DNA from: a virus
IMG/VR virus record: IMGVR_UViG_3300028388_004125
Span: 1 to 47,729 of that record
Strand: one strand, 5' to 3'
Length of the DNA stretch: 47,729 nucleotides
The translations under genes were made by a program, and so were the position numbers. The notes under the pieces were generated by a model. That model was not told the origin of the DNA, did not search any database, and saw nothing but the letters and a program-made list of their open reading frames with translations. Position 1 is the first letter of the stretch. Each line of letters starts with the position of its first letter. This document shows positions 4,625 through 38,109 of this stretch, piece by piece.

Positions 4625-4656
4625 CAAAGATATGAAAAGTTTATCGTTATTTCAAA
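4625..4656 (-). promoter_or_regulatory. host-type promoter, near-consensus
   Basis: Minus strand TTTG, 20 bp, TATCTTTG, with the -7 box 19 bp before the ATG at 4605. The -33 box overlaps the last codons of the carbamoyltransferase gene. Confidence 0.75.
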
Positions 4657-6494
4657 TACATTTTATCATTCAATACTAAGATATCGACGTCTGAATTTTC
4701 AAATAGTTCCATCACTTCTTCAGGTGTTTCGACAATAGGTTCACCCTTAACATTTAATGAAGTATTCATAACCACAGGAACTCCTGTTATTTCGTAGAAT
4801 GAATTTATAAGGTCATAAAATTTATTATTATCTTCCCTTCTTAATGTTTGTACTCTCGATGTGTTGTCTATATGAACTGCCGATGGTATCTCCTGAGGTT
4901 TTTTACATGGGACGGTATACAACATAAATGGTGATTCAAAGTCCATTTGGAACCACTCCTCTTTATGTTCGTTGAGGATAACAGGTGCAAATGGTCTGAA
5001 CCATTCTCTAAATTTAACCCTACTATTCATAATATCTTTCATATCTTTCCTTCTTGGGTCTGATATAAATGAACGATTTCCTAATGCTCTCGGTCCAAAC
5101 TCACTTCTACCTTGGTACCAACAGATAATCTTACCATTACTGATTTGTTCGGCAACGAATTTTTCATCATAATCAATTGCTTCGTATTCTGTCTCAGGTT
5201 GGTACATGTATTGAAAACCAAGATACATGATTTCATGATTTTTATATTTGTATCGAGGAACACTCAAAATCTGATGAGTAGCGTAAAGTGCAGAACCTGC
5301 AGATACACCGTCGTCCCCACATGCCGGGAACATATGCATTCTTTCAAATGACGTTTCAGTCATAATTTTATAATTTGCATTACAATTCAAAAATGTCCCA
5401 CCAGCAACACACAGGTTTCCGTCATTTATTGTTGATGACTCATCATATAAATCCTGAGAATATTTTACCAAAGACCTTTCAGCGACATATTGAATATCTG
5501 CGGCGATATCCATCACTTCTTGGCTGTCAGATTCTTCTTTGGTATATACCATCTGAAATTCTCTATTGAAATGTTCATATCCTGGTTCTTCATCCAAAAT
5601 TTCAGGTCGGTACCATTTTATATATGGATACTTACCCGACATTTGTAAAAACAACCAATCACAATAATGCATATCCTCAGTTGTACTCCTTTGGTCATAG
5701 GGACGGGTCCACCATTCCCAATTATCTCTCGCTTTTTGACTTATCTTACCGAATGAAGATAAACCCATTAAGGTACCTGCTTTGGTAGTACCAGGTCCTA
5801 TTCCACAAAACTCCGTGGCGACATCATAAAAATTACCATATGTATAACCAGGATTTCTGAATATGTTTAGTCTATGCTCATGACCCCAAAAATAACCACT
5901 ACATGCCCAATGGATATTCATCGAGGCATCAGCAGTAAAAATCATACTGTTATCGAAGGGTGACGTATAATATGCTGAACTAGCATGACAAACGTGATGG
6001 TCAATAAAAAAACCTGGTATTGGTCTATCATAGAAGTCCAATTTCAATAACAGTTCAAAATCATTGATATGTGTTGATTCTGAATTTGAATAAGGAGGTC
6101 TAAATCTATCAATTACATCAGGTAACGTATAACCAAGACCTTCTACGTAAGAAACTCTTCTATTAAAATTGTTAGAATATTCGTCCAAATGATTCAACAG
6201 ATTACTTTCCATTTCTTGTCTACCATAAATGGATAAGGGATACTTATTATCTTCAGGTGAATACAATTTAGCATAATCCATATTACCATGATTCCAATAC
6301 CCCATGGATACATAATCGATATCGTCTAATGTAATATTACTGTAATCTAAAAATTTTAGGAGGTTTTCTTTTGTGATTTTCCAATCCTTTTTGATTCTTG
6401 AAAACCTTTCCATGGATATTGCGGATATTAACTTACCGTCCTTTACTAAACTTAGTGCTGCGTCATGCCCTGTGTGAATACCTAGTACATTCAT
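4647..6494 (-). CDS. carbamoyltransferase, NodU/CmcH/TobZ family
   Basis: A 615-residue O-carbamoyltransferase with the family's two-domain build. The N-terminal Kae1-like ASKHA domain starts MNVLGIHTGHDAALSLVKDG and carries the metal-binding FIDHHVCHASSAYY and the CVAGGTFLNCNANYKI / PACGDDGVSAGSAL blocks. The C-terminal domain has GRSEFGPRALGNRSFISDPR, FREWFRPFAPVI and VPVVMNTSLNVKGEPIVETP. Known members move the carbamoyl group of carbamoyl phosphate (through carbamoyl-AMP) to a hydroxyl of a sugar or antibiotic; phage members have been connected with DNA-base or glycan modification. Full length and apparently intact. No substrate-making partner is adjacent, but RmlC, GT25 and FkbM enzymes elsewhere in the window favour a glycan target. 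Confidence 0.95.
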   Translation of the reverse strand: MNVLGIHTGHDAALSLVKDGKLISAISMERFSRIKKDWKITKENLLKFLDYSNITLDDIDYVSMGYWNHGNMDYAKLYSPEDNKYPLSIYGRQEMESNLLNHLDEYSNNFNRRVSYVEGLGYTLPDVIDRFRPPYSNSESTHINDFELLLKLDFYDRPIPGFFIDHHVCHASSAYYTSPFDNSMIFTADASMNIHWACSGYFWGHEHRLNIFRNPGYTYGNFYDVATEFCGIGPGTTKAGTLMGLSSFGKISQKARDNWEWWTRPYDQRSTTEDMHYCDWLFLQMSGKYPYIKWYRPEILDEEPGYEHFNREFQMVYTKEESDSQEVMDIAADIQYVAERSLVKYSQDLYDESSTINDGNLCVAGGTFLNCNANYKIMTETSFERMHMFPACGDDGVSAGSALYATHQILSVPRYKYKNHEIMYLGFQYMYQPETEYEAIDYDEKFVAEQISNGKIICWYQGRSEFGPRALGNRSFISDPRRKDMKDIMNSRVKFREWFRPFAPVILNEHKEEWFQMDFESPFMLYTVPCKKPQEIPSAVHIDNTSRVQTLRREDNNKFYDLINSFYEITGVPVVMNTSLNVKGEPIVETPEEVMELFENSDVDILVLNDKMYLK

Positions 6495-10890: not shown

Positions 10891-11784
10891 ATGAATATGG
10901 GACCAGAGTTTAATGATTATTTGATGGGTATCGGTGAAGAACTTGCTAAATTGGGTGCAAAACCTAAGATGGTTAGTTTCCTTCTTAGAAAGAATTATTT
11001 TAGGATAAAGACCGCATTCTATGAAGATGATAGTCCTGAGAATGTTCTAAAAATATTACAAAAACAAATCTTTGAATCAGTAGACTACATGAATGAGGCA
11101 AAAGTTAAAAGAGATTTAACAGGTTTTGGTCCTGATGATTTTGATGATGGGTCAAACCGTGATAAGGGAGGTAGAGGTACTGTTAAAAGATTTCCGATAC
11201 AGTCAAGTAATGATAGTGTCACCAGAACAGTTGTTAGAGACTTATTGAATGTCATCAAAAAAGGACCTGGTGAATATTATTTACCTGAAGAATTGGTGGG
11301 TGACGAAATGTCATACATCTATGATAACTTTCCTGCTTTCAGTGTGGAGATTACGGTAAAAGAGGATATGTCTATAAAAGGTGACTATATGATGAATGCC
11401 AGTACTGTAGATGATGGTGATATCATTGAGATTGTCTTAATAAAGAACCCAACTAAATTCCCTGAAGCGTATTTTGATTTGGTTGCAGACCTTAATGATA
11501 CTGTCCGTCATGAATTGGAACATGTATTACAAGACTTTGGTTATCGTGATGTTCAATCTGACGACTCAGAAAAACCAACAGATAAAGAATACTACAAACA
11601 AGCCCATGAAGTACCTGCTGAGATTGCGGGTTTCAGAAGAATCGTAAAATTAAGAAGACAATCACCTGAGCAAGTCATCAGAGATTGGTTCAATAGAAAT
11701 AAGGAAGTTCACCAACTACCTGATGAAGATATTGACGAATTAGTATTATATCTAACTGACGAATATAAAAAGAAGTATGGATAA
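10891..11784 (+). CDS. HExxH metalloprotease-like late protein
   Basis: A 297-residue protein whose C-terminal half has a zincin-type site: VRHELEHVLQDFG (HExxH) followed about 30 residues later by HEVPAEIAGFRR, offering a glutamate as third zinc ligand. The N-terminal half is helical and charged, with FPIQSSNDSVTRTVVRDLLN and a beta-rich middle. Phage proteins with this HExxH...E layout are usually left unnamed. A late-type box and the phage context suggest a virion-associated or assembly protease, but it could equally have lost activity. The stop overlaps the next start by 8 bp. Confidence 0.7.
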   Translation: MNMGPEFNDYLMGIGEELAKLGAKPKMVSFLLRKNYFRIKTAFYEDDSPENVLKILQKQIFESVDYMNEAKVKRDLTGFGPDDFDDGSNRDKGGRGTVKRFPIQSSNDSVTRTVVRDLLNVIKKGPGEYYLPEELVGDEMSYIYDNFPAFSVEITVKEDMSIKGDYMMNASTVDDGDIIEIVLIKNPTKFPEAYFDLVADLNDTVRHELEHVLQDFGYRDVQSDDSEKPTDKEYYKQAHEVPAEIAGFRRIVKLRRQSPEQVIRDWFNRNKEVHQLPDEDIDELVLYLTDEYKKKYG

Positions 11785-14048: not shown

Positions 14049-14056
14049 TATTTATA
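14049..14056 (+). promoter_or_regulatory. putative late promoter box TATTTATA
   Basis: Exact box 16 bp before the ATG chosen for the PPK2 fusion gene. Confidence 0.6.
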
Positions 14057-14072: not shown

Positions 14073-16541
14073 ATGATGAATCCTGAAGTCAAAGAGGGTG
14101 ACAAGATTGTATTGGTTTATATGAAAGATGAACAAGGTATGACACCTGGCACTAAAGGTGTGGTTACCAGAGTTACGAAAGACCCCTTTGAAGAAGATGA
14201 TTTATTGATTTCTGTAGACTGGGAAAACGGTCGTCCTCTATCTATTGTATCTGCTGAAGATTTGTGGATGTTGGATTCAGAAGAAAAAGAGCCAATTCAA
14301 GAACAAAAATTACCTAACAATGCAAATCCATGTGATAGTGTTGGTGAAGGTTCTGAGTTCTGTAAGAAATTGAGTAATATCTTAAAATCAGGTAGAGGTG
14401 GTAAAGGAGCGAAACTATTCAAAAGAAAATCTTACGAAACATTCACTAAGTTAAGAGATGAGGGTTTTGGTAAAGGTATGGAAGTTCAAACTTTAGAACC
14501 TGGTAATCCTTTTTTCGATGCCCGTATTGATGAATTAAAGAAATTCTTTGGTTTACTCACAAAGTACAGTGCTTGTAGTAAAATGAGAAACGACATCAAG
14601 AATGACATTATCAATGTTAAGAAAAAACAATTGAAGATGATAACAGACGATGAAGAATATTCTATACTTAATCGTTTAGATACTCATTACTCAGGTCAAG
14701 CCTACATTCTTACATTATTGGCCAAAGATTTGGACTTTTATATGATTGATACCTACGATAATGACCAAATTATTGAGGAGGTTGAGTTATTCATATTAAA
14801 TAAGCCACACAGAATCAAAGATAAGATTAATACTTTGATGGATGATGAAAAAGGAAATGTTCAAGATACTTTATCATATTCCAAAATTAAAGGTGGTAGA
14901 GTTGAGTTAGGTGCAGCAAAAGCGTTCGAAAAATTAGGGTATACGGTTTATAACTTTGCAACTGATTTCGGTTTTGTTGACCATTTTGGTGTAGATATGT
15001 TGGTAGAAAAAGATGGTGAAATTCATCCTGTTCAAGTATCATCACAAAGAAAGTTTAGTCCTGAGATTGCGAAATATAATGATATGGATTGTGAGTGTTG
15101 GATGGTATATCAGGATAGGAATAGTGGTAAGTTTAGAAAAGAGACCATTATGGAACAGAGTAAAGAAGATGTTAGTAAAAAATTAATCGACAACAATATT
15201 GAGCCAAGTATCATTGACGACCTTTTAGGTTCACTAACAGATGAAGATATCACTGATTTGGTGATGAGAAATTTGGACCGTAAACTATTCAAAGGTGGGG
15301 ACAAAGAAAAGAACGTCAGAGATTACTTTGAGAAATATATTAAGTCATTAGCCGACAGAACAGAACAAGACCCTAACGATGACTTCGATGTAGAAGATGA
15401 ATTCTTATACGGTGGTGAAGAACCTGAGAAGTCTAAGATTGGTAGAAAACAATTCAAAAACGAGTTATTACCTTTACAGGTTGAACTCCTTAAACTACAG
15501 GAAGATGTTAAGAAAACAGGTAAGGCAATTGCCGTCGTATTTGAAGGTAGAGATTCTGCAGGTAAGGGTAGTACCATCAAAAGAATGGTGGAATACTTGG
15601 ACCCTAAATACTATAACATTATAGCCTTAGGTATCCCAACAAAAGAGGAAAGACAAGATTGGTTTGGTCGTTATGAGAAACACATCGAAAATGGTAAAAT
15701 TAACTTCTTCGATAGAAGTTGGTACAACAGAGGTATTGTTGAACCTGTGATGGGTTATTCTTCTGAGGAGGAATACATCGACTTTATGGAGAATGTAAAT
15801 GACTTTGAACAATCGTTGATTGATAGAGGTATTGAGTTGGTGAAGTTCTGGTTAAGTATCACTCCTGAAACACAGAAGAAGAGATTCCAAATGAGAAAGG
15901 CATCACCACTTAAGTATTGGAAGTTCTCACCGAATGATGAGAAGTCTATCGATAAGTGGGATAAGTATACTGAGTATAAAAACAAGGTATTAAAACAAAC
16001 AAAGGAAGCCAAACCATGGACTGTGGTTGACACCAATGATAAGAGAGCGGGTATTCTAAACGCTTTCAGACACTTATTAAAGGTGGTGGACTACGAGGGT
16101 AAGGATTCGGAGAACGTCGGTTCTGTGTACCCTGAGGTGGTCACAACAATCAAAGAGAAGGAGATGACCGAAGCGGGTAATCACCATTGGACGGACTGGC
16201 AAAGAGTTTCCGATGTGTTGGGTCGTGAGAACAAAATATTGTATGACTTCTTTGAAAAATTAAGATTGTCGAGTGTGATGAATATGTTGGAATCCACTCA
16301 CTTTATTTATTCAGGTTCAGATTATCTTAGACGTTATATTCAGTTTAATCAATATGAAAATTATGACGAGGATAAGTATGAGGAGTTATATGATGCTGCG
16401 GATGAGGCCAAACATGCGATGATTCGTTTGTCCATTGAGTCTTTGGAAAGAAAAGGAAAAGAGACAAGTCTGGAAAATATTAACAGTGAGGTTAAGTTAT
16501 TGGCCAGACAAGCTCTTCAAGCCTTCATTATGATGAAGTAG
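14073..16541 (+). CDS. PPK2 fusion: KOW/DUF4314-like, PD-(D/E)xK-like and polyphosphate kinase 2 domains
   Basis: An 822-residue multidomain protein. Residues 5-65 (VKEGDKIVLVYMKDEQG, GTKGVVTRV) form a small beta-barrel module resembling DUF4314. Residues 275-335 resemble a restriction-type nuclease fold: GRVELGAAKAFEKLGY (E278), DHFGVDMLVEKDG (D308) and HPVQVSSQRK (Q321), but the usual lysine after Q-x is serine. Residues about 465-690 are a polyphosphate kinase 2 domain: AVVFEGRDSAGKGSTIKRMV (Walker lysine K498), FFDRSWYNRGIVEPVMGY lid, VKFWLSITPETQKKRF, and PWTVVDTNDKR. A helical C-terminal region (690-822) is unassigned. PPK2 enzymes phosphorylate nucleotides from polyphosphate. Start ATG 14073 was chosen over an in-frame GTG at 14067. 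It has a late-type box and ends 1 bp from an opposing gene. Confidence 0.9.
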   Translation: MMNPEVKEGDKIVLVYMKDEQGMTPGTKGVVTRVTKDPFEEDDLLISVDWENGRPLSIVSAEDLWMLDSEEKEPIQEQKLPNNANPCDSVGEGSEFCKKLSNILKSGRGGKGAKLFKRKSYETFTKLRDEGFGKGMEVQTLEPGNPFFDARIDELKKFFGLLTKYSACSKMRNDIKNDIINVKKKQLKMITDDEEYSILNRLDTHYSGQAYILTLLAKDLDFYMIDTYDNDQIIEEVELFILNKPHRIKDKINTLMDDEKGNVQDTLSYSKIKGGRVELGAAKAFEKLGYTVYNFATDFGFVDHFGVDMLVEKDGEIHPVQVSSQRKFSPEIAKYNDMDCECWMVYQDRNSGKFRKETIMEQSKEDVSKKLIDNNIEPSIIDDLLGSLTDEDITDLVMRNLDRKLFKGGDKEKNVRDYFEKYIKSLADRTEQDPNDDFDVEDEFLYGGEEPEKSKIGRKQFKNELLPLQVELLKLQEDVKKTGKAIAVVFEGRDSAGKGSTIKRMVEYLDPKYYNIIALGIPTKEERQDWFGRYEKHIENGKINFFDRSWYNRGIVEPVMGYSSEEEYIDFMENVNDFEQSLIDRGIELVKFWLSITPETQKKRFQMRKASPLKYWKFSPNDEKSIDKWDKYTEYKNKVLKQTKEAKPWTVVDTNDKRAGILNAFRHLLKVVDYEGKDSENVGSVYPEVVTTIKEKEMTEAGNHHWTDWQRVSDVLGRENKILYDFFEKLRLSSVMNMLESTHFIYSGSDYLRRYIQFNQYENYDEDKYEELYDAADEAKHAMIRLSIESLERKGKETSLENINSEVKLLARQALQAFIMMK

Positions 16542-30904: not shown

Positions 30905-31294
30905 TGGTGGAGGTGGCGGGTTTCGAACCCGCGTCTTGCTCGCACCACCCATAAAGGACTACACGTTTAGGTCAGTATTTTCTAATACTCCGAAACTTGT
31001 TGGTTTGTTCTTCACCATCGTAAACCAACGACCAATGGACGATTCAATTTAGGGTTTAATCGTTTCTCAACCTCAACTGCGGACTTCTGTTCAAAGGTAT
31101 ATGTCCTGACCGACCCGTTTCACTGTTGCGTCTTACGCTACAGTTACTTCTTCAGTGCGGATAAGACCGACAGCCTGAAGTTTTGCGATTGTTTCGCCTG
31201 TTAAAAAAATTGTCACCATAGATTAAAGTGATAGATAACATCTCACTACGTGCCCCGTATGACTGTCTACGCCAATCAATTCCAACTCACCCCC
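30905..31294 (-). ncRNA. ssrA: tmRNA (transfer-messenger RNA), one-piece
   Basis: A 390-nt tmRNA that would rescue stalled ribosomes. The acceptor stem GGGGGTG pairs with CACCTCC (one G-U), followed by discriminator A and an encoded CCA. The T-arm is GCGGGTTCGAAACCCGC. The 5' D-like region has GGAATTGATTGGC. An mRNA-like segment follows, with a tag frame at 31133-31198. The tag stop lies in the loop of a CTGT-A-GCGT / ACGC-A-ACAG hairpin, as helix 5 of tmRNAs does, and pseudoknot-forming sequence follows. It has its own promoter and terminator. Bacteria already have ssrA, so a phage copy suggests a separate purpose or tag. Confidence 0.95.
31133..31198 (-). other. tmRNA tag-peptide reading frame (atypical)
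   Basis: The most likely frame begins at GGC and gives GETIAKLQ at the start and EEVTVA at the end, 21 residues before TAA. GET matches the opening of Bacteroides tags. Yet it is more than twice as long as the usual 8-10 residues and ends TVA instead of the ALAA degron. A second frame one base on (AKQSQNF... to TAA) is open too but does not place its stop in the helix 5 loop. Confidence 0.6.
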
Positions 31295-36020: not shown

Positions 36021-38039
36021 TTAATTTACCCCTTCCTCAATGATTACTTCTTCTTCATTCATCTTCAGTTCGTAGTTACGTCCGATTTTAATCTTCTGAC
36101 GTAATACCTCTTCTGAGATGTAATCCTCGATTTTCTCTTGGATTGCTCGTTTGATAGGACGTGCTCCGTATTTTTCATCGAAACCTACGTCAGCCAACAT
36201 ATCTCTTACTTCATCAGTGAAGTTGATGTGGTAACCGAGTTTGTCCAAACGTTTGGTTAGTTTTTCCAATTCGATGTCCACGATTGAACGTACTTCTTTC
36301 TCTTTTAGAGGGTTGAAGACAATCACTTCATCGAGACGGTTCAAGAACTCAGGGGTGAAGTGGTTTTTAAGTTCTTTTTGTAGGAGAGCCTTTTTCAGGT
36401 CCTCATCACCACTCATTCTTGCTGAGGTATCAAATCCGACACCTGCTCCGAAGTCTTGTAGTTTCTTCACACCCAAGTTTGAAGTCATAATAATCAAACA
36501 GTTCTTAAAGTTGATTTTACGACCGAAACTGTCCGTGAGGTGACCATCGTCCAACACCTGTAGTAATAGTGAGAAGATGTCCTTGTTTGCTTTTTCAATC
36601 TCATCAAACAATACTACTGAGTAAGGTTTGTTTTTGACTGCTTCGGTAAGTTGACCACCTTCGTTGTGACCCACATATCCTGGAGGGGAACCGATGAGAC
36701 GTGACATGGTGTACTTCTCTTGGTATTCACTCATATCCACACGGATGAGAGCTTCTTCATCTCCGAAGATTTGTTTTGCCAATTGTTTCGCCAAGTGAGT
36801 TTTACCCACACCTGTTGAACCCAAGAAGATAAACGAACCGATTGGTCGGTTGGGGTCCTTAATCCCCACACGGTTTCTACGGATAGCTTTTGAAATCTTT
36901 TTGACTGCCACCTCTTGTCCGATAACTGATGTGTTCAGATTACCTTCCAAATCCAAAAGACCTTCCATTTCGTTTTGGTTCAGTTTGGATACAGGAATCT
37001 TAGTCATGTTTGAAACTACATCATATACCATATCTTCAGTGATTTCTTGACGTTCTTCGTCTTGTCTCTTTTCGAAATCGGCTTTTACCTTATCGAGTTC
37101 TTTCAAGACCTTTTTCTCTTTGTCTCTAAGGTGTGCCGCCTTCTCATAATCCTGAGCCTTGACCACGTTGATTTTTTCCTGTTTAATCTGATTTGCCTTC
37201 TCTTTGAGTTTTTCAATCTCTTCAGGAAGTTTCACAGAAATCTGACTACGAGCACCCACCTCATCCATGATATCAATTGCCTTATCAGGGAATTCACGGT
37301 CGGTAATGTAACGGTCAGCCAAATATACACAAGCCTCCAACGACTCTTTCGAGTAGTTTACCTTATGGTGCTTCTCATAACGAGACTTTAGGTTATCCAA
37401 GATAATCATGGTCTCCTCAGGGGTGGCACCATCCACCATTACTTTTTGAAAACGACGTTCCAATGCTCCGTCTTTTTCAATGTTCTCACGATATTCATCG
37501 AGAGTGGTTGCACCGACACATTGTAGTTCACCACGCGCCAATGCTGGTTTGAAGATGTTGGAAGCGTCCAATGAACCTGATGAGTTACCTGCCCCGATGA
37601 TGGTGTGAATCTCATCGATAAACACAATGATATCAGGGTTATCATGCAACTCGTCCAAGATTACCTTAAGACGCTCCTCAAACTGTCCACGATACTTTGT
37701 CCCTGCAACGATGGATGTCATATCCAAAGATACGATACGTTTGTCACAGAGGTTACGAGGACAATCACCTTCGTAAATCTTCATTGCTAATCCTTCAACG
37801 ATTGCAGTTTTACCACAACCAGGTTCACCAATGATGATGGGGTTATTTTTCTTTCTACGAGAAAGGATTTGAGCGATACGGTCAATCTCACGGTCACGAC
37901 CCACAACAGGGTCCAACTTACCTTGTTCCGCTAAACGGATAAGGTCACGTGAGAAATTATCCAACACAGGTGTTCCTGATTTTGGTCCTCTTTCCTTTTT
38001 TCCTTTTGAACTTTCGTTCGGGTCTACAGATTCAATCAT
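36021..38039 (-). CDS. ClpC-type AAA+ unfoldase lacking the N-domain
   Basis: A 672-residue two-ring Hsp100 unfoldase. The start [18 protein letters not shown] was chosen. D1: GEPGCGKT at 71-78 and VFIDEIHT at 139-146. Middle domain with a UVR-type motif ([16 protein letters not shown], 295-310). D2: GSTGVGKT at 407-414, [10 protein letters not shown] at 475-484, and FLNRLDE with the arginine finger near 568. VGF at 534-536 matches the ClpP-docking tripeptide of ClpC. The roughly 150-residue Clp_N adaptor/substrate domain is absent; the chain begins with about 45 residues before D1. It could plug into host ClpP while escaping host adaptors. Phage-encoded ClpC with ClpP docking is unusual. Confidence 0.95.
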
Positions 38040-38064
38040 AGTTGTTCTTTTTATTTTGACTCTA

Positions 38065-38072
38065 CAAATATA
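38065..38072 (-). promoter_or_regulatory. -7 box of the clpC-like gene
   Basis: Minus strand TATATTTG 25 bp before the ATG; only a poorly spaced TTTG (15 bp) is found for -33. A second -7-like TATCTTTG on the same strand lies further upstream, at about 38192. Confidence 0.45.
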
Positions 38073-38109
38073 AGACAATTTCTAATACAAACTACACCAT
38101 TTCCAAAAT

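Follow-up and report, generated by a model that had tools for sequence, protein, structure and literature searches.

A class I polyphosphate kinase 2 in a mosaic phage protein with junction motifs resembling prohead-protease sites: a candidate head-packaged cargo polyprotein

The internal head proteins of phage T4 enter the prohead core through a capsid-targeting sequence (CTS), after which N-terminal peptides are lost (PMC9958956). Cleavage by the gp21 protease occurs at I/LxE sites, which in T4 Alt are ITE-6 and LTE-619 (PMC5694885). A second group of relevant systems is formed by the polyvalent proteins described by Iyer et al. (2017; PMC5512222), mosaic multidomain phage proteins with variable modules that presumably accompany the DNA into the host; the paper stresses their embedded peptidases and does not mention polyphosphate. 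In polyphosphate kinases of the PPK2 family an Asn following the Walker B motif marks class I (PMC8776046, PMC11641546). For most of the class I enzymes that have been characterised, phosphorylation of ADP or GDP is described, and some form polyphosphate from ATP (PMC8776046). PPK2 genes have also been assigned to viruses; two papers (PMC9636769, PMC13188868) report them as metabolic genes of the infected cell and, in the passages concerned, describe neither their architecture nor packaging in virions.

The window analysed here is the whole 47,729-nucleotide stretch of IMG/VR record IMGVR_UViG_3300028388_004125, a 47.7-kb virus fragment with T4-type portal and terminase genes. One of its genes encodes an 822-residue protein with the modules listed in Table 1. 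The initial annotation had proposed three parts, and the KOW/DUF4314, nuclease-like and PPK2 regions were all recovered; the helical C-terminal tail had been missed and the (I/L/M)xE motifs at the module edges overlooked. DUF4314 was matched in Pfam at residues 7-63 with 29.8 bits, just above the cut-off of 27, and in PHROGs the protein matched only DUF4314-like families of unknown function, with no PPK2 family among them. Four modules in one chain and mosaic variation among relatives are the trait of polyvalent proteins, but the motifs found here suit a separate prohead protease rather than embedded peptidases. Some other candidate assignments were rejected: a Peptidase M41 match for residues 261-344 scored below cut-off and overlapped the PD-(D/E)xK core, inspection by eye found no Cys/Ser...His-Asn junctions of an intein in the 822-residue protein, and for a group I/II intron the only Rfam match in the window was a tmRNA.

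Table 1. Features of the polyprotein candidate and associated elements, in window coordinates
Feature	Position	Strand	Basis or remark
TATTTATA box, probable late promoter element	14049..14056	+	24 nt upstream of ATG
Whole ORF, polyprotein candidate	14073..16541	+	open for 822 aa
KOW/DUF4314 module, res. 1-65	14073..14267	+	Pfam; 90% identity to L002 KOW
Junction 1, Ile-Gln-Glu, res. 75-77	14295..14303	+	putative prohead-protease site; PIQE conserved in L013
PD-(D/E)xK-fold region (predicted), res. ~78-361, core ~267-361	14304..15155	+	model comparison
Junction 2, Ile-Met-Glu, res. 359-361	15147..15155	+	putative protease site
PPK2 unit, res. 362-690, including a helical extension at its N-terminus	15156..16142	+	class I signature DRSWYN at 547
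Junction 3, IKE (res. 693-695) and MTE (res. 698-700)	16149..16172	+	putative protease sites
Helical C-terminal module, res. ~701-822	16173..16538	+	homology, predicted structure
Second carrier gene (N-domain, MNE/A linker, HELEH zinc-peptidase-like domain)	10891..11784	+	comparison with L031, L088

The PPK2 domain (res. 458-678) was recognised in Pfam with E=5.5e-73 and 245.7 bits, against a cut-off of 22.3. Walker A (GRDSAGKG at 492), Walker B and the lid region are intact, the core aligns with 229 bits to the F. tularensis enzyme (FtPPK2, 5ll0), which is among the nearest relatives of solved structure, and the Asn after Walker B that characterises class I is present in DRSWYN. Profile match, motifs and alignment agree with the earlier description of a complete domain. 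Judged from these features the kinase is apparently intact and of class I. A complete domain with a class I signature makes polyphosphate + NDP -> NTP the likely reaction, in line with the conversion of host polyphosphate into NTP suggested initially. Similar to the class I enzymes of F. tularensis (PDB 5ll0/4yeg) and S. meliloti (3czq), the phage unit shows alignable Walker A, DRSWYN and lid segments; unlike these, it has an N-terminal helical extension, is embedded in a larger chain and lies on a separate, mostly viral branch of the phylogenetic tree. A 100/100 branch has 29 viral and 3 bacterial rows on one side and the remaining bacteria together with Moraxella phage Mcat6 on the other, the viral rows not being strictly one clade.

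Some individual records deserve mention. The bacterial rows that group with viral PPK2s in the tree (L159, L224, L238) are cellular records of Crocinitomicaceae, Neomarinimicrobiota and Thalassotalea, which may represent a donor, a phage remnant or contamination. In the Mcat6 record (KR093630.1, L006) an unannotated PPK2 is present, which clusters with the bacterial enzymes and may stem from a host flank. One huge phage harbors a second, divergent PPK2-like gene of 33% identity (L010; LR756501.1, 447910-448626, minus strand).

The region between KOW and PPK2 had been described as PD-(D/E)xK-like with serine at the position of the catalytic lysine. Its structural model, built from an alignment of two sequences (overall pLDDT 52, most of the core ~70-87), has I-Ssp6803I and archaeal Hjc resolvases as best PDB matches. 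The best Foldseek matches are PD-(D/E)xK enzymes with probabilities of 0.99-1.0 and E-values of only 5e-3 and weaker, and comparison with Hjc gave a VIA Z of 6-7 over model residues 196-297. These predictions lend moderate support to a PD-(D/E)xK core fold. A profile search against solved structures with KOW plus the nuclease-like region as query gave no match. The putative core residues are E278, D308 and Q321, followed by a conserved R326-K327 pair; the catalytic Lys position is Ser323, three and four residues ahead of this pair, and is Ser as well in contig L013, the sole relative found with this module. In the relatives L016, L019 and L027 PPK2 is preceded by a different cargo, in which the pattern FEG...D...S(V/L)K is conserved; read by eye, this pattern appears to be an intact PD-(D/E)xK motif. 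The C-terminal module is predicted to be helical (pLDDT 81) and is homologous to the second half of a 196-residue gene product of the syntenic phage L002. A PDB fold search with this module returned nothing significant, which says nothing for a new fold; the best structural match in BFVD was A0A6J5LBF1, a 200-residue 'DUF4314 domain-containing protein' that lacks the length for a PPK2.

Comparison with this syntenic phage revealed an empty site. The L002 contig (genome G001, 297 kb, viral) shares ~77% DNA identity with the window on both flanks, and its gene at the same locus encodes only KOW-LNE-tail. Homology ends at window position 14276 and resumes at 16170, the intervening 1.9 kb corresponding to 18 nt around a Leu-Asn-Glu in L002; the difference may have arisen by insertion, by loss or by both. 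Contig L013 has KOW and the nuclease-like region, without PPK2 and tail. Scanning IMG/VR with two short PPK2 patterns yielded at least 298 stretches encoding relatives. Among the best 80 of these 298, which were examined, the order KOW-[cargo]-PPK2-tail occurs in L016 (1018 aa), L017, L018, L019-L021, L023-L026 and L028, and likewise in L082, which encodes (nearly) the same protein as L019-L021; the cargo between KOW and PPK2 is present in some fusions and missing in others. The start of the L022 sequence is missing, and most others of this set are stand-alone PPK2s. The PPK2 unit also occurs in a second, unrelated carrier: in L031 and L088 it lies, bounded by xE motifs, between the N-terminal domain and a HEMEH zinc-peptidase-like domain (a label given by motif, with no Pfam match). 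This carrier is found without PPK2 in the window, L002 and L013, the window copy having an MNE|A linker. Lysozyme or cell-wall hydrolase domains follow PPK2 in the viral proteins L059, L067 and L091.

The motifs (I/L/M/V)xE at the junctions resemble the site of the T4 gp21 prohead protease; of those in the 822-residue protein, IQE 75-77 matches the (I/L)xE processing motif and IME and MTE are near-matches with Met. At junction 1, [IL].E is present in 10 of 11 non-redundant KOW linkers as compared to a mean of 3.6 in shuffled sequences, and 0 of 5000 shuffles reached 10; none of the control patterns was significantly enriched, the nearest being E.[IL] with P=0.10. The eleventh linker (L088k) has its border, set by a pattern, at the wrong W, and LLE is present there too. 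At junction 2, [ILM].E or a similar motif directly precedes PPK2 in the 12 upstream contexts, which were listed by hand; the nuclease-like region of L013 ends in LLE. At junction 3, every one of the 13 fusions has [ILV].E after the PPK2 C-terminus, compared with 27% of windows placed at random in these proteins; the controls [ILV].D, [ILV].K, [ILV]..E and [ILV]E stay close to background or fall below it. The junction windows were set after the motif had been spotted by eye, and the P values are not independent because the sequences are related. Across the whole 822-residue protein (I/L/M)xE occurs 12 times, against 14 expected from composition, and some of these copies lie inside domains; therefore position, not number, carries the argument. 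Genome-wide, the density of [IL].E near N-termini is only mildly raised and is partly matched by controls.

A candidate protease is found in related phages. Of 19 records, 9 have a Peptidase S77 (gp21-type) match above cut-off and 12 a gp23 match; no gp21-type protease is encoded on the 47.7-kb window, itself a fragment, and G001, G002, G003, G006 and others possess one. In G001, G006, G008, G009, G013, G014 and G015 the gp23 propeptide has HLINE at its end, and the next residue is A or S. The 822-residue protein begins with KOW and has no short T4-type N-terminal capsid-targeting sequence. Many stand-alone viral PPK2s, some of them from huge phages, begin with peptides such as MINNFIKFINEE that are similar to T4 capsid-targeting sequences. 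Among 20 stand-alone viral PPK2s, 17 have [IL].E in the first 40 residues (11.8 after shuffling), a weak signal; with the stricter CTS-like pattern F[ILVM].E at residues 3-18, applied post hoc after this weak test, 11 of 65 viral and 0 of 79 bacterial PPK2s were positive. In 200 kb of the huge phage LR756502, F[ILVM].E occurs in 15 of 223 genes versus 3.7 in shuffled sequences, and F[ILVM].D in 0. Recurring N-terminal peptides, for example MGLLNEDISRIKEIMGLNEE and MAKKIIRLTESDIQKIVRNILNE, which are possibly targeting signals, were also seen in many genes of the window and G001. In the huge phages L116 and L117 an ORF just upstream of gp23 contains a repeated YSEYIAENLDKNI-like unit and is likely a scaffold with many possible cut sites.

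The T4 late promoter element is TATAAATA, to which the TATTTATA box of Table 1 is probably related. Of the 60 window genes, 9 have this box in sense orientation, its start lying 12-25 nt upstream of their ATG (0.41 expected within 45 nt), and in G001 it lies within 45 nt upstream of 47 of 296 genes (1.72 expected), including those for portal and prohead protease and, as far as resemblance can tell, tail sheath and tube. The sharing of the box with portal and protease genes of this phage group upholds the late-type promoter that the initial annotation had noted. An exact copy is located 18-26 nt upstream of the KOW gene in the window, L002, L016 and L013; in L017, L018, L019 and L028 a close variant takes the place of the exact 8-mer. 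Genes with the late-type box and genes with an N-terminal [IL].E are weakly associated (Fisher P=0.024).

We lean slightly towards the view that a T4-type phage makes this protein late, as a cargo polyprotein that is packaged in the head, cut in the prohead and delivers PPK2 for NTP synthesis. This reading draws on the empty site, the recurrent fusions, the second carrier, the junction enrichment and the gp21 and gp23 proteins of relatives, as well as on the CTS-like N-termini, the lysozyme/hydrolase fusions, the class I signature and the late-type box. KOW/DUF4314, the PD-(D/E)xK-fold domain, the class I PPK2 and the helical tail would be translated late as one chain that enters the prohead core, a targeting role of KOW being assumed. 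A gp21-type prohead protease would then separate the modules at (I/L/M)xE sites, and the freed PPK2 (~39 kDa) would be injected along with the DNA and make NTPs from host polyphosphate and NDPs as infection starts. We infer that the protein is packaged, cleaved and injected and that the enzyme is active, as well as its physiological role, packaging mostly by analogy with T4 sequences and energy supply from the enzyme class. Similar to T4 internal head proteins and Alt, the system shows I/LxE motifs, a late-type box, a gp21-type protease and gp23 in relatives, and CTS-like N-termini on some huge-phage PPK2s; it differs in its PPK2 cargo, in having several cassettes per chain and in the KOW module that replaces the short CTS. 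The earlier suggestion that the protein might be carried in the virion fits the CTS-like N-termini and the junction motifs, by the same analogy.

The protein could instead remain uncut, as a multidomain enzyme that the producing cell synthesizes late, with KOW and the nuclease-like region binding nucleic acid while PPK2 supplies NTPs locally as the product of an auxiliary metabolic gene. The single open frame and the late-type box agree with this, as do viral ppk2 transcripts reported in metatranscriptomes (PMC13188868), but the xE motifs at the junctions and the CTS-like N-termini of some stand-alone PPK2s do not, and modules that are swapped, missing or placed in another carrier imply that PPK2 has no fixed partnership with a DNA binder, which leaves this possibility rather doubtful. 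The idea of a single enzyme whose neighbouring modules tether it to DNA is weakened likewise: modules that are independently gained and lost cassettes, split by motifs resembling prohead-protease sites, are more likely cut apart. Packaging in the head without cleavage between the modules, as a polyvalent protein injected whole, has precedents in known polyvalent proteins with unrelated domains and in the N4 virion RNA polymerase, which is packaged unprocessed (PMC5512222); it is unlikely in view of the junctions, where (I/L/V)xE is enriched and the controls stay close to background.

Any of these delivery models is compatible with a different role of the enzyme, in which PPK2 works predominantly in the reverse direction, or serves as a counter-defence by removing polyphosphate, and alters host stress signalling and not NTP pools. 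Synthesis of polyphosphate from ATP by some class I enzymes would allow this, but phosphorylation of ADP or GDP is what most characterised ones catalyze (PMC8776046); sequence cannot decide the direction, and we regard such a role as quite improbable. In a metagenomic contig one might suspect that separate genes were joined by an assembly artefact or by chance read-through, and the closest syntenic relative lacks the middle of the protein. This explanation is largely refuted and has a negligible probability, and the assembly fusion of two genes that the initial annotation had named as a possible error does not apply: the 822-residue ORF is real and no assembly join, because KOW-PPK2-tail fusions occur in other contigs, long ones included, from different metagenomes.

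The claim that no phage protein with this architecture had been described holds in so far as we found no description; it is qualified by the other IMG/VR contigs with KOW-PPK2-tail, in which the fusion sought in further phage DNA was indeed found, and by the viral ppk2 genes reported earlier (PMC9636769, PMC13188868). In the literature within reach, which excludes many subscription papers, we found nothing relevant on polyphosphate kinases of virions, on phage DUF4314 or on polyproteins as head cargo, and no report of the KOW-PPK2-tail architecture or its packaging in virions. If the packaging model is true, phages deliver an energy-salvage enzyme of their own to the cell instead of awaiting its expression, viral ppk2 has to be seen as an entry factor and no longer as a late auxiliary gene, and phages possess a modular head-cargo polyprotein with cassettes that are movable at protease sites. 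Tentatively, and with somewhat less confidence than for the general model, such a polyprotein, cut by the prohead protease, may load a polyphosphate-driven NTP generator into T4-type virions for infecting energy-poor, polyphosphate-rich hosts. The question is broad, since at least 298 IMG/VR stretches encode PPK2 relatives.

Other genes of the window were noted in passing. Positions 4647-6494 (minus strand) encode a Nol-like carbamoyltransferase. The tmRNA, a phage form at 30905-31294 (minus strand), has an unusual predicted tag, AKLQAVGLIRTEEVTVA, and a TATTTATA box on the minus strand at 31335-31328; it might pair with a ClpA/ClpC-like AAA ATPase encoded at 36021-38078 (minus strand; PHROG 'ATP-dependent protease').
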